DNA from: Spirochaetota bacterium
GTDB taxonomy: Bacteria; Spirochaetota; Spirochaetia; Treponematales; Rectinemataceae
Assembly: GCA_008080685.1 (NCBI GenBank)
Contig: VKGY01000015.1
Location: 5,845-41,960, forward strand
Direction of reading: 5' to 3'
Length of the DNA: 36,116 nucleotides
Part shown: positions 22,786 through 35,800 of the stretch, in pieces
Position numbering within the stretch: position 1 is the stretch's first letter
Layout: the number at the start of each line of letters is the position of its first letter
Position numbers and translations under genes: made by a program
The notes under the pieces: generated by a model
Told to the model about the DNA's origin: nothing
Database searches by the model: none
The model's input: the letters and a program-made list of their open reading frames with translations, nothing else

Positions 22786-22899
22786 GCGACAGGATGACAA
22801 GATCGGCAGGATTGACTTTTCGATCCTGAAAATCTTCGATATCCTGTCGCATTTCTTTTTAGGGACAAGATAACAGGAAAATCAGGATAGGCAGGAGAG
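22786..22899. repeat. Degenerate ~9-nt periodic CAGGAT/ATCCTG repeats, partly forming an imperfect inverted repeat
   Basis: GCGACAGGATGACAAGATCGGCAGGAT (22786-22812) pairs with ATCCTGAAAATCTTCGATATCCTGTCGC (22823-22850); further 9-mers GACAAGATA ACAGGAAAA TCAGGATAG GCAGGAGAG at 22864-22899. Confidence 0.75.
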
Positions 22900-22967
22900 G
22901 AAATTTTTGGGAATTTTCGAGGCCTCTCCCGCGCCCTCGTCCTCGCCTACGGCGGCCCCGTATTGCC

Positions 22968-23366
22968 TTAACAGAGGCTTTTGATATTCATGGCGCGACA
23001 CATCTCATGGAGGGTTTTGTCGTTGGTCAGGAGGGTGGCGTCGTTCCGCCGCGCCAGGATCGCGAAGTAGAGATCATATATGGAATGGGAATATTTGATT
23101 CCTTCCGCAAGGGCTTCCTTCCAATAATCTTTTGCATCGAAAAAATCATCCACCATGGATAGGCCGTCCTCCGCGAGTTCCATGCATTGGGCATGGGTGA
23201 CTAAACCCGCCTTGCAGTATTTCCACAGCACATTGGTAAGTTCCTCCATGTAGAGGTTTGGGGCGATCACCCAATCCGAATCTTCATGTATCGATCCGAA
23301 TAGAACGCACTTTTCCCTTTGAAGCAAGATTTCAATCCCTGCGCTTGCATCCAGGACGAGAGTCAT
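22968..23366 (-). CDS. vapC: PIN-domain toxin (VapC-type)
   Basis: MTLVLDASAGIEILLQ; APNLYMEELTNVLWKYCKAGL; SIYDLYFAILARRNDATLLTNDKTLHEM. Confidence 0.87.
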   Translation of the reverse strand: MTLVLDASAGIEILLQREKCVLFGSIHEDSDWVIAPNLYMEELTNVLWKYCKAGLVTHAQCMELAEDGLSMVDDFFDAKDYWKEALAEGIKYSHSIYDLYFAILARRNDATLLTNDKTLHEMCRAMNIKSLC

Positions 23367-23608
23367 CGTTCCCTATCCTCCCTGATCCATGCGTCCGCAG
23401 GCGCTTCTTTGACATAGTCCGGGATTTCCCTCTCTTTGATTTTTTTTAAAAGGTCTTTCCTTCTTGCAGTGTTTGTTTGTTCTTGCCCCAGGCTCTTTTC
23501 AAGGAGCGTGACTGCCTGCTGGGCAATGGTGCGTTTCTTGTTTTTCGCCGCGTGGGCGATTTTTTTGTAAATATCCTCGGGGCAGTCTCTTATTTGAAGC
23601 AAGGGCAT
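23363..23608 (-). CDS. Antitoxin (ribbon-helix-helix-like), partner of the downstream PIN toxin
   Basis: MPLLQIRDCPEDIYKKIAHAAKNKKRTIAQQAVTLLEKSLGQEQ; AGGAGGT RBS; 4-nt overlap with the toxin gene. Confidence 0.75.
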   Translation of the reverse strand: MPLLQIRDCPEDIYKKIAHAAKNKKRTIAQQAVTLLEKSLGQEQTNTARRKDLLKKIKEREIPDYVKEAPADAWIREDRER

Positions 23609-23668
23609 AGCTACCTCCTGCATACAATTTAAAGCTATATGTATGTGGTGTCAATCTGTTCACAGCGT

Positions 23669-24685
23669 CTACACGTTCTGCGCGACACGAGGCTCGATCT
23701 CCAGCCACCATTCCTGGACGCCTTGGGGCGGCAAAATCCATTCCATGCCGAATTTTCGGGCATTGCCCGGGGAATCCATGCCCGCGGCCGCAGGCTCGAT
23801 GCCGATGTTGTTCTGCCCCGCCCAGCCGCCTTCATTCACCCATATGCCCAGGTAGGGAACCTTGTCCGCGGGAAAGCGTAGGGCGACGCTGAACCCGGTG
23901 CCGTCTTCCGAGGGCGGATCCTCCAAGAAGACTTCGCCCAGGGTCAGGGGCTTTGCGAAGTAGAACTTGCGGGTCAGGCCTGTGTCGACGCTGATCTTGG
24001 AAAGGTCAAAGGCCGGTACGCCGCGGCGGGGCGAGGCCAAAGGATAATCGAGGAGGGTTCCCTGGGGGCCGAGTTCTTCGCTTGAGTTTGCGACGATGAC
24101 GCGGGCGCAAGACTCTCGATTCGCCGCAGGGAGGGATATGCGCATTCTTTGGCGGGTTGCAAACAGGGGGTGGGCGGCCCAGAGGCAGGGAAAGGGGGTC
24201 TCTCCTAGGTTTTCCACATGATACTGAATACGGAGCGAGGCGCCTGAGAGGCTGAAGGTTTTTTGAAGGCGGTAGGGGAAATTTCGGCCTTGGACAGCGA
24301 AGGAGAGGGACCCGGCCTCGGACGGGGTTTCTTCCCAGGGCATGAACCAGACTTCGCCGTGGTCGGGAAGGGGCTGCCCCGCCCAGGGCGCGAAGGGGTA
24401 GGGTTCGGCGTTGACTGTGGGGAACATGTCGTCGAAACCCGTGGAATCCTCGGGCTTGAATGCCGATCCGGGAACGAGGGGCGGATAGGTGTCGCCCGGG
24501 TATTGCCACAGCAGTTCCCTGGCTGGTTTTTTGACGTAGATCGAAGCTGCCTTGGCTCCGCGGCGGGGAAGGACGACTAGTCTTAGGGCGTCGTTCTCCA
24601 AGACGAGGGCGGGCTCGCCTTTGTAGGTCGATTTTACGCAGGCTGGGGCTTGTGCCAAAGATTGAGCCGAGTTTTTTTTTGTCAT
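23669..24685 (-). CDS. Aldose 1-epimerase / galactose mutarotase-like protein
   Basis: ENDALRLVVLPRRGAKAASIYVKKPARELLWQYPG; PLFATRQRMRISLP; WVNEGGWAGQNNIGIEPAAAGMDSP. Confidence 0.75.
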   Translation of the reverse strand: MTKKNSAQSLAQAPACVKSTYKGEPALVLENDALRLVVLPRRGAKAASIYVKKPARELLWQYPGDTYPPLVPGSAFKPEDSTGFDDMFPTVNAEPYPFAPWAGQPLPDHGEVWFMPWEETPSEAGSLSFAVQGRNFPYRLQKTFSLSGASLRIQYHVENLGETPFPCLWAAHPLFATRQRMRISLPAANRESCARVIVANSSEELGPQGTLLDYPLASPRRGVPAFDLSKISVDTGLTRKFYFAKPLTLGEVFLEDPPSEDGTGFSVALRFPADKVPYLGIWVNEGGWAGQNNIGIEPAAAGMDSPGNARKFGMEWILPPQGVQEWWLEIEPRVAQNV

Positions 24686-24808
24686 GTTCCATATCCCGGA
24701 ATCCGGGCCTCCGAGTTTGAGGATACCTTCGCCGGGGCGGCGCGCGCCATAGGGACAGGAGAAAAAAATGGGAGTAGAATAGGTGGCATCCTGGCGTGGG
24801 GCAAGCCA

Positions 24809-24961
24809 GACCAGTTAGACGAGTCGGACACGGCGGACAGGGCAGACAAAGCTGACAAAGCTGACACGGCGGACAGGATAACGGGATTTACAGGATCGAC
24901 AGGACAGCAGGATCCACAGGCTCCTATCCTGTTTATCCTGCAAATCCTGTTATCCTGTCTA
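24809..24961. repeat. Intergenic array of 17 consecutive degenerate 9-nt units, ending in an inverted-repeat half
   Basis: Units: gaccagtta gacgagtcg gacacggcg gacagggca gacaaagct gacaaagct gacacggcg gacaggata acgggattt acaggatcg acaggacag caggatcca caggctcct atcctgttt atcctgcaa atcctgtta tcctgtcta. Arms 24872-24907 and 24924-24959 match as inverted repeats at 31/36 positions. Confidence 0.85.
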
Positions 24962-25038
24962 ATTTGTCCAATTACTTCCCGCCCGATCATCGTGCGCAAT
25001 CATCCCTGAAGTTGGAAAATTTTATAGAGGAGCGGAAT

Positions 25039-25698
25039 ATGGACACCATATTCGGAGAAGCGAGAATCGAGGCGCTGAGGAAAAAAGGAATCCTGGCAGT
25101 CATGGTGATTGACGACGCCGACGACGCCGTGCCAGTCGCTAAAGCCCTCGTGGAAGGTGGCATCACCGCCATGGAACTCACCTTGCGGACCCCCGCGGCC
25201 ATGGAAGCCCTCAAGCGCATCGTGGCGGAAGTGCCCGAAATGACCGCGGGCGTGGGAACCATCATCACCACAGGCCAAGTCCACGATGTAAAGCTCGCCC
25301 GGGTGGATTTCGGAGTCTCCCCGGGGTTCAACCCGAAAATCGTGGCAGAAGCGATCAAGATCGGCTTGCCCTTCGCCCCGGGAATCTCCATCGCCTCGGA
25401 AATCGAAGGAGCCGTGGAGCTAGGCTGCCGGGTGTTGAAATTTTTCCCTGCCGAAAGCATGGGCGGCATCAAATACCTCGATGCGATCAACAACCCCTAT
25501 GGATTCCTGGGACTCCAATACATCCCCCTCGGAGGCTTGAACATGCAGAACCTCGCCTCCTGGCTGGAGAAGGACTACATCCTCGCCATGGGCGGCTCCT
25601 GGATCGCCCCGAAAAACCTCATCAAACAGAAAGCCTGGGACACAATCCGGGAAAACGCCCGGGCTGCCATGAAGGTTTTCCACGAAGTAAGGGGCTAG
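25039..25698 (+). CDS. 2-keto-3-deoxy-6-phosphogluconate (KDPG/KHG) aldolase family
   Basis: ALRKKGILAVMVIDDADDAVPVAKALVEGGITAMELTLRTPAAMEALKRI; VGTIITTGQ; CRVLKFFPAES (Schiff-base Lys); likely start 25039. Confidence 0.9.
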   Translation: MDTIFGEARIEALRKKGILAVMVIDDADDAVPVAKALVEGGITAMELTLRTPAAMEALKRIVAEVPEMTAGVGTIITTGQVHDVKLARVDFGVSPGFNPKIVAEAIKIGLPFAPGISIASEIEGAVELGCRVLKFFPAESMGGIKYLDAINNPYGFLGLQYIPLGGLNMQNLASWLEKDYILAMGGSWIAPKNLIKQKAWDTIRENARAAMKVFHEVRG

Positions 25699-32848: not shown

Positions 32849-35800
32849 GCCGCATCCTTTCGGGGTACTACGAAGGCGGTGATGGAATGTTCAGGTACGA
32901 GTTGGTGGCCTGAGGTCACCTCAAGGCCGATGCGGGCAGCGCCCAGCAAGTCCAGGACAGCCCTTTGGTATTCCGTTCCGGGGCAGGCAGGGAAACCGAA
33001 GGAATACCTCCTAGTCTTGGCCGGACCTCCCGCGTCCCTGATTTCCTTCTCTATCCTTTCGTGGGCCAGGCGGGCGGCGGCTTCGGCCAAGGCTGATCCA
33101 AGGCCGTGGAGCTTCCAATATTCCTCGTAGTTTCCCGATTCCTTGAGGCCCAAGGCCCGATCCGAGATTTCCCTTCCCACCGTGGCGGCGAAAATGGGCA
33201 TCATGTCGAGCACGGGATGGAAATAATCCGAAATGCTGCGCCTAAGGCCGTCCTTTTCCCGGGGGAAGACCATTTCCACGCTGCTTTTCAATCCTTTTTC
33301 CGGATCTCCGATCAAAAGGCGGCCTTCGGAAACCAAGCGGCAGGGAAAATGGCCGTAGACCAGGGCGGGTCGGAGGATAGGCTCGATCTCCCCAAGGAGC
33401 TTGAGCAATTCATCCTTCGCCTTGGAGAGTTCCTCGCCTCGATAGGCCCAAAGGGTGGAAAAAAGCCATTTTTCATTCAACGCCCCGACCAAGGCATGGA
33501 AGTCAAGGGGCTGGGGTTCCATGGCTCCTGTTTCAGCAAGACGGTAGGCTGGCCCTCCCGGGATCGCGATCGCCGAACCCGAAGCCGAGGCCTTGCGGGA
33601 TCGAGACTCGGGCACCTGAGGCGGGCTCACCAAAGGCTCGGTCGCCTTTGGCCTGTCGCCCACGGCTCCAAGGACTCGGGCTGCCTCGAAGGCATCCTTG
33701 CAGGAGAGCACAAGCCCCGGGTGCTGGGGCTCCAATTCCCTTACAACGTATCGGGGATCGACGGCGGCGCCTCCGCAGAGGACCAGGCGGTCCAGTCCCT
33801 CCCGGTTCAGGGCGGCGCAGGTTTTTTTCATCTCCCCCAGGGAGCGGGTGAGGAGTCCTGAGAGGCCCACAGCCGCCACCCCTTCGTGCCGGGCGGCCTC
33901 GAGGATGCGGTCCGTGGAAACGTCGGTGCCCAGATCCACCACCTCCCAGCCCGAACAGGCGAGGATGGCGGCGACGATGTTCTTGCCTATGTCGTGCAGG
34001 TCTCCCTTCACAGTTGCCATAACCACTTTCCCCTTCGAGGTCTGGGCTTTCATCTCAGCCAAGGGAGTCAAGGCTTTCCTTGCAGCCTCGGCCGACCTCA
34101 AGACTAGGGGAAGGGAAATCGCTCCCTCGGCCCAGAGCCTCCCGGACTCGGCCATCGAGGTGGTCACAGACTCCATGAGGGCTTCATGGCCCTTCGCCTC
34201 AAGGAGGGCGAGGGCGAACTTTTCCGCGGCCTTTTGGTCACCCCGGGAAAGGGCCGCCGCCAAGGTCGATTCCAGGGTCGCTGCGGCACCTGCGGCACCT
34301 GCGGCACCTGCGGCACCTGCGGTGCCGGCAGTGCCGGCAGTGCCGGCAGTGCAGGCGGCCGGGGCAGGCGAGGTTTCCTGGGCTGCCGCGTACTCGAGAA
34401 GGGGACCAAGCTTGTCCTGGGCCTCCGTGTCGCCGCCGGGAAGTCCCAGGGCGGTGAGGGCGGCGGCGCGCAAGGCGGGAGGAATCGCCGAAGGCTTGGG
34501 GATTCCTCCGGTATCGAGGATGGCCGCGTCCAGGCCTGCCGCGGCCGCCGCCTGGAGGAAAAGGGAGGTTGTGGTGGCCCTCACCTTCCTGGGCAGGCCG
34601 TAGGAAATGTTTCCTACTCCAAGGATGGCAAAGGAGCCGGGACAGGCTTTTTTGACTTCGGCAATGGCTGCGATGGTCGCCGCCCCATCGGCGCCGGCGG
34701 CGACAGTGAAGGTCAGTGGATCGAAGAAGAGGTCCTCAGGCGACAGGCCGAACTCGCCTAAGGCCATGTCGTAGAGGTTCCTGCAGATCCGAACCTTGTC
34801 CTCAGAAGTCTTGGCGGGACCTTTTTCGTCCAGGGCGAGGCAAATGACAGCGGCGCCGAACTCCGCGGCGAGGGAAAACACGGCTCTTGCCTTTTCGGCA
34901 TCCTCAAGGCTCGCGGAATTGAGGATGGCTCGGCCGCCCACGAAGGGAAGGGCCTTAGCCAATGCGGCCGGGTCGCTGGAATCAAGGGAAAGCGCAGCCT
35001 TCGCCCGTGGGGCGAGGAGAGAGGCGAGTCTCGAGAGGTCTTCGGCTTCGTCCCGGCCGGGCCTTGAAAGATGGAGGTCGATGGCTGATGCGCCGGTTCC
35101 TTCCTGGGCCAGGGCTTTCTGGGCCATAGCCTCGAAATCCTCTGCGTCCACCAGGGCTGCGAAGGCCGCCGATCCCGCCGAGTTGGCCCTCTCCCCGATG
35201 GAAAAGAATTCAGGCCCTATCGGGACTGGCTCGTACAAGGAGGCGAGGGCGGGCTTAGCCTTCGGGGCTTGCCGCCTGGGAAGCCGTGGCGCTGCGTCCG
35301 CAGCCCAGGTTCGTTGCGCGTCCAAGACTTTCTTCAAGGCGGCAATATGGCCTGGGGCGGTGCCGCAGCAGCCGCCGACAATTTGGATGCCGAATTTTTT
35401 CACCATGGCCGACACCTTCGAGGCGAAAATTTCCGGCCCGAAGGGATAGGTCGTGCAACCCCCTTCGGTGCAGGGGAGTCCTGCGTTGGGCATGAAGCAA
35501 AGGGGAAAGGGCGAAACCCTCGCCAGGGTCGCAAGGGCGGATTCGAGCTCGTCCGGCCCTCCCGAGCAGTTGAGGCCGATGGCCAGGGGCTTGTACGGCG
35601 CCAATATGGCTACCAGGGCTTCGATGCCCGTGCCGGTGAGCATCCTCCCCCTTTCATCCACCGTGGCGGACACTATGAAGGGAAGGCCTCTTCCGCCCCG
35701 GGGGCTCCTGAGCGCGGAGATGGCCGCCTTGATCTGCAGGGGATCCTGGCAGGTTTCTATGATGGCCAGGTCGGCCCCTCCGTCCGCCAAACCTCGGGCT

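Follow-up and report, generated by a model that had tools for sequence, protein, structure and literature searches.

The closest described systems are of several kinds. REP, REPIN and BIME elements are short, dispersed extragenic repeats that occur singly, as inverted pairs forming hairpins, and in clusters of alternating orientation (Bertels and Rainey 2011, PMC3116915). Integron attC sites are imperfect inverted repeats situated between small gene modules, which are often toxin–antitoxin pairs (PMC8876359). The intervening sequences (IVS) of 23S rRNA have inverted repeats at their ends that pair into a stem, and some of them also carry a small ORF, S23 (PMC4990558). The multicopy nucleotide sequences of Geobacter bemidjiensis comprise palindromic families or families of 6- to 42-nt direct repeats, and occupy many intergenic regions (PMC2996986).

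The locus considered here lies in a 36,116-nt stretch of DNA from a Spirochaetota bacterium, which we call the window. It is an intergenic array with a short repeat period that turns back on itself as an inverted repeat. To our knowledge, no settled explanation exists for intergenic repeats of such short period.

Anatomy of the array

A preliminary description had placed a near-continuous array of 9-nt units at 24809–24961, with an inverted repeat inside it. The array is real: identity at a lag of nine nucleotides is 0.597 over 24809–24961, clearly above the 0.252 ± 0.035 (maximum 0.389) obtained from 5000 dinucleotide shuffles. The 9-nt period stands; its continuity does not, since 8-nt steps interrupt it (8-9-9 in one arm, mirrored as 9-9-8 in the other), and the 8-nt step is conserved across the repeat family and is not drift. 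Nor is the block clearly periodic from 24809, where the first two proposed units have little beyond GAC in common; its clear periodicity sets in at about 24827. The inverted repeat between 24872–24907 and 24924–24959 was reproduced at exactly 31 of 36 matches, a value that 500 dinucleotide shuffles do not approach (the highest being 26) and that shuffling of whole 9-mers within each half attains once in 500. The features of the window are listed below, with E values for half-elements taken from R1, a sequence model of the half-element used for genome searches.

22788–22816, + strand: left half of a second hairpin (R1 E=3.7e-5, 22.5 bits)
22820–22853, − strand: right half of the second hairpin (13.1 bits)
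22863–22895, + strand: lone half-element adjoining the second hairpin (R1 E=1.1e-4, 16.5 bits)
22968–23366, − strand: PIN-domain (VapC-like) gene, between both copies (PF01850 E=1.6e-5)
23363–23623, − strand: RHH antitoxin-like gene (PF07878 E=1e-4; 22.3 bits, under the Pfam cut-off of 26)
23669–24685, − strand: aldose-epimerase-like gene, left neighbor of the array (PF01263 E=1e-8)
24827–24871, + strand: lead-in made up of five 9-mers of GACA type, which share the register of the half-element's first unit (direct reading)
24872–24905, + strand: left half-element, heptamers spaced 8-9-9 (two mismatches to the pattern; R1 E=1e-10)
24906–24925, no strand assigned: loop region, with one extra CAGGAT at 24908 (direct reading and fold)
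24926–24959, − strand: inverted half-element forming the right arm, with 9-9-8 spacing as read on the + strand (one mismatch to the pattern; R1 E=7e-12)
25039–25698, + strand: KDPG aldolase gene (eda), right neighbor of the array (TIGR01182, above cut-off)

The hairpin at 24872–24959 thus consists of a half-element and an inverted half-element, each with four ACAGGAT heptamers. Those of the left arm start at 24873, 24881, 24890 and 24899, with the next at 24907; those on the other strand, at 24926, 24935, 24944 and 24952, mirror them. Inverted pairs of half-elements can fold back on themselves when single-stranded, whether as DNA or as RNA, and the array region, folded as a single strand, gives a long hairpin (z = −7.7 as RNA, z = −8.5 as DNA). 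The array sits between the aldose-epimerase-like gene and eda, which form a divergent pair. Treponema assemblies are among those that carry relatives of eda. Its lag-9 signal is not unique, as other spots in the window score higher, apparently the 9-mer repeat at 34281–34356. There, the 9-nt tandem CTGCGGCAC (4.7 copies) is followed directly by GTGCCGGCA (3.9 copies), nearly its complement; this looks like a coding repeat and does not belong to the hairpin family.

The lead-in is best explained by the first unit having expanded locally in tandem, and a comparable lead-in of GACAGATCG units lies ahead of the half-element at another locus (L064). Local replication slippage and template switching, with no dispersed family involved, would explain the entire array from such events; it can point to the lead-in 9-mers, which resemble in-register tandem expansion, and may account for the lead-in only. 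For the hairpin it is refuted by some 100 dispersed copies of one consensus, with the same half-element also present in other families of the order, and as an account of the whole array it is extremely improbable.

A second copy of the family within the window, at 22788–22895, had been overlooked in the preliminary description. Together with the array at 24872–24959, it brackets the PIN/RHH toxin–antitoxin-like pair and the epimerase gene, and 22788–24959 may therefore be a hairpin-bordered segment. Relatives of the epimerase gene within the taxonomic family were found in genome G009 only, with no half-element near them.

The repeat family and its placement

The structured intergenic repeat family suggested earlier is borne out by further copies dispersed through the genome. 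The half-element has a consensus of about 34–40 nt, (GAATNR)GACAGGATAACAGGATnnnCAGGATYnACAGGAT, and is found alone or paired with an inverted copy across a short loop. R1 recovers 110 matches from the bacterium's own genome at E≤0.01, and tightening the threshold to E≤1e-3 leaves 99; a mismatch-tolerant scan of the fetched stretches finds 76 half-elements from this genome, 45 from other genera, and one in reversed sequence. Among relatives the distribution is patchy: R1 is positive in 24 of 121 genomes and 14 of 56 genera of the order, and 9 of 248 genomes in a sample of the phylum carry the half-element at E≤1e-4. The genomes compared are draft assemblies, in which R1 counts range from 41 (G012), 28 (G009), 22 (G023), 18 (G050) and 16 (G020) to zero in G018, which shares a genus with G009, and in G022, which shares one with G012 and G020. 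Counts of 41, 16 and 0 within one genus, and of 28 and 0 within another, therefore suggest fast turnover. The consensus is also genome-specific, and the G009 half-elements fall into two end sub-types.

Other repeats and arrangements were seen alongside the family. One contig of G035 holds a series of hairpins next to a HicA-type gene, several of them spaced by about 140 nt (L115:1371–2890, G035:C26); its left arms and its right arms are each consistent, and of differing sub-types. Another dispersed palindrome, GGGGTCAGACCCC or GGGGTCTGACCCC accompanied by a nearby TTGACT, is frequently found a few dozen bases away from half-elements (L062, L066, L068, L077, L087, L097, L098, L101, and L248 near 1430). 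Literature searches by sequence returned nothing relevant, and none of the papers searched contains the GGGGTCAGACCCC form of the palindrome.

Placement relative to genes was assessed with rough gene calls, based on codon-usage scoring of ORFs. Across 14 genomes, 143 arrays divide into 34 in convergent, 42 in codirectional and 11 in divergent gaps, with 23 overlapping a called gene and 33 unplaceable; baseline gaps in the same stretches number 5, 37 and 18, respectively. Arrays are thus in excess between convergent genes (OR 7, p=2e-5), and lie a median of 16.5 nt past the stop codon of the upstream sense gene. Both features fit either a function at 3′ ends or insertion tolerated where it does no damage to promoters. 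Neighboring halves are arranged '+-' in 51 cases and '-+' in 18, with gaps mostly of 37–77 nt.

The first of these possibilities would make the repeat a functional RNA element, a hairpin in the 3′ (sometimes 5′) UTR that stabilizes the mRNA, serves as a target for RNase III, or blocks convergent read-through. Convergent excess, proximity to stop codons, and the strength of the RNA fold argue for this. However, the two arms of one hairpin match no better than arms taken from separate loci, the difference slightly favoring the latter; compensatory covariation, and with it a selected RNA structure, is therefore unsupported. Of the checks set out in the preliminary description, those for further copies and for a lag-9 signal came out in its favor, and that for covariation did not. 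Many half-elements are single, the repeat is missing from sister species, and the window's own array belongs to the divergent minority. No intrinsic terminator (a G+C-rich stem with a T run) occurs at 24600–25100, and comparison with Rfam gave sub-threshold matches only, the best being miRNA-precursor models, with none at the gathering threshold. We consider a functional RNA unlikely. A CsrA-type sponge, suggested by the half-element's ACAGGAU, which resembles CsrA sites, was rejected because strand use at codirectional genes is not significantly skewed (17 vs 10).

It has also been proposed that the array binds protein: four spaced heptamers could form a site for an oligomeric nucleoid organizer or regulator. 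The 8-9-9 spacing is kept across genera, and single half-elements persist, as would suit such a site. But spacing is 9-10-9 in two genomes (G035 and G032), most relatives carry no copies, and divergent promoter regions are avoided, making this explanation less probable still than a functional RNA.

Two half-elements were observed in frame within coding sequence, one inside a MalK-like ATPase (..GQDNRIGQDLQDKGK.., L073:1181–1215) and one within Tex, in the tail at its C-terminal end (..GQDTRIGQDQQEK.., L077:2624–2658). Both recall Rickettsia palindromic elements.

Cargo genes and proposed cassette borders

Some copies border small genes that may be regarded as cargo, including those for GxxExxY, HicAB, MazEF, AbiE, VapC and AAA_14/DUF4143 proteins. 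G050 and G032 each have a GxxExxY gene (TIGR04256/PDDEXK_3) with inverted half-elements on either side, at distances that match; the one in G023 stands amid half-element arrays that also border an AbiEi-like gene. G035 has a HicA gene flanked by half-elements, and in G009 small modules, Phd/ParE among them, are separated by half-elements. The bacterium's own genome has a single GxxExxY gene, about 90 nt from a hairpin. Most of its copies lie between ordinary genes with no cargo, and AAA_14 genes show no clear excess beside them (5 of 82 adjacent genes vs 2 of 53 others); in this genome, cargo is therefore associated with a minority of copies. AAA_14/DUF4143 ATPase genes were repeatedly seen as neighbors of half-elements, or as their cargo (L248 in G012; G000).

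Three species of one genus were compared. A 19.9-kb stretch of G012 (L248) was aligned to G022 (L272) and partly to G020 (L273), and is alignable with these sister stretches save at three places. At the first, G012 has 3.1 kb (HicAB, AbiEii with an adjoining gene, and four half-elements) where G022 has about 57 nt. At the second, 4.3 kb in G012 (two AAA_14-DUF4143 genes, MazEF, and half-elements) corresponds to about 250 nt with one bare hairpin in G022. At the third, 1.9 kb (AAA_14-DUF4143, PIN, and half-elements) corresponds to about 90 nt with one bare hairpin in G020, and to about 190 nt in G022 with no half-element detected. Apart from those in these two bare hairpins, no half-element of the sister stretches scores above 10 bits. 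Hairpins in this genus thus mark where toxin–antitoxin and other small genes came or went, with cargo either gained in G012 or lost in its sisters; neither an exact empty site nor a target-site duplication could be defined at the three sites. Of the three functions first offered for the array, recombination substrate fits best, given that cargo differs at orthologous sites; an RNA structure under selection is not supported, and a protein-binding array is a less likely possibility.

Periodic flanks extend beyond this motif. Across the order, periodicity of 7–9 nt was found in the flanks of 16 of 31 GxxExxY genes and 17 of 26 S23 genes, compared with 0 of 31 and 1 of 26 far windows, respectively, and with none of 20 control genes (RAYT genes and relatives of the epimerase gene). 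The motifs vary by genome, being of CACGGAG or CACAGAG type at GxxExxY genes (L148–L177) and of GGTAAT, GTGAAT or GTGGACA type at S23 genes (L178–L207). The inverted-repeat score of the flanks exceeds the 95% level of cross-locus pairs at 11 of 31 GxxExxY and 7 of 26 S23 genes. Around these genes, folding energy does not fall below that of far windows or of control genes; the other motif families therefore show periodicity only, plus inverted repeats in some. We tentatively suggest, as a rather speculative extension, that arrays or hairpins of 7–9-nt units, with a motif particular to each genome, are general borders of mobile cassettes, comparable to attC or IVS and acted on by a yet-unnamed enzyme. 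The travelers in this general class might then, with similar reserve, be GxxExxY or S23 proteins, toxin–antitoxin pairs, and AAA_14/DUF4143 ATPases, and the cassette machinery could include the GxxExxY nuclease or the S23 bundle. Both genes are absent from the repeat-rich G012. A literature text search for 'GxxExxY' returned unrelated papers only.

If such repeats are cassette borders, this would explain why toxin–antitoxin pairs, GxxExxY genes and S23 genes are scattered singly in unrelated places, and would provide a testable home for two protein families of unknown function (GxxExxY and S23). Comparison of species within a genus makes gain and loss of cassettes directly measurable.

Relation to known systems

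Taken together, the array is probably one copy of an interspersed, non-autonomous hairpin repeat that proliferates and also serves small gene cassettes as a border or landing site. Its mobility is suggested by high copy number, intergenic sites near stop codons, patchy spread, a genome-specific consensus, and differences in cargo; the cassette-border behavior is an addition to this reading that is supported but less certain. The hairpin would spread by means of an enzyme supplied in trans and be best tolerated at sites where promoters stay uncut, and recombination between hairpins might allow small gene modules to enter and exit. The reading is weakened because searches yielded no mobilizing enzyme, and because most copies in the bacterium's own genome lack cargo.

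Several specific assignments were considered. RAYT/IS200 was rejected as the mobilizer: RAYT (PF01797) has no match in the repeat-bearing genomes G000, G012 and G035, and no half-element lies within about 1 kb of the RAYT genes sampled in G009, G032, G041, G050 and G062. Paired half-elements are better conserved than single ones in G000 (0.751 vs 0.721, p=0.02), with no such difference in G009, G012 and G023, a pattern of REPIN-type doublets that is thus not general across these genomes. An attC site was rejected, the core (GTTRRRY/RYYYAAC) occurring at 2 of 218 outer ends, compared with four in the reversed control. As for MITE criteria, inverted halves are present in the hairpin, and there is no exact empty site from which to define a target-site duplication. 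Spread by phage was rejected, since exact partial matches occur in five viral contigs, where the full half-element is mostly missing; a plasmid search matched one Spirosoma record.

Like integron cassettes, the hairpins keep company with small modules, many of them toxin–antitoxin pairs; unlike attC sites, most copies have no cassette at all. Like IVS, they include inverted repeats that form a stem, and a small ORF may or may not accompany them; IVS, however, are insertions in rRNA, whereas the copies examined here lie between protein genes. The likeness to the multicopy sequences of Geobacter bemidjiensis is one of description. In form, the family resembles REP and REPIN elements, which are likewise mostly intergenic, single, in inverted pairs with a short spacer or in clusters whose orientation alternates, and potentially hairpin-forming, although the half-element described here differs in being composed of four 8–9-nt units. 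We regard the element as a new form of interspersed palindromic repeat, one that is most likely mobile.
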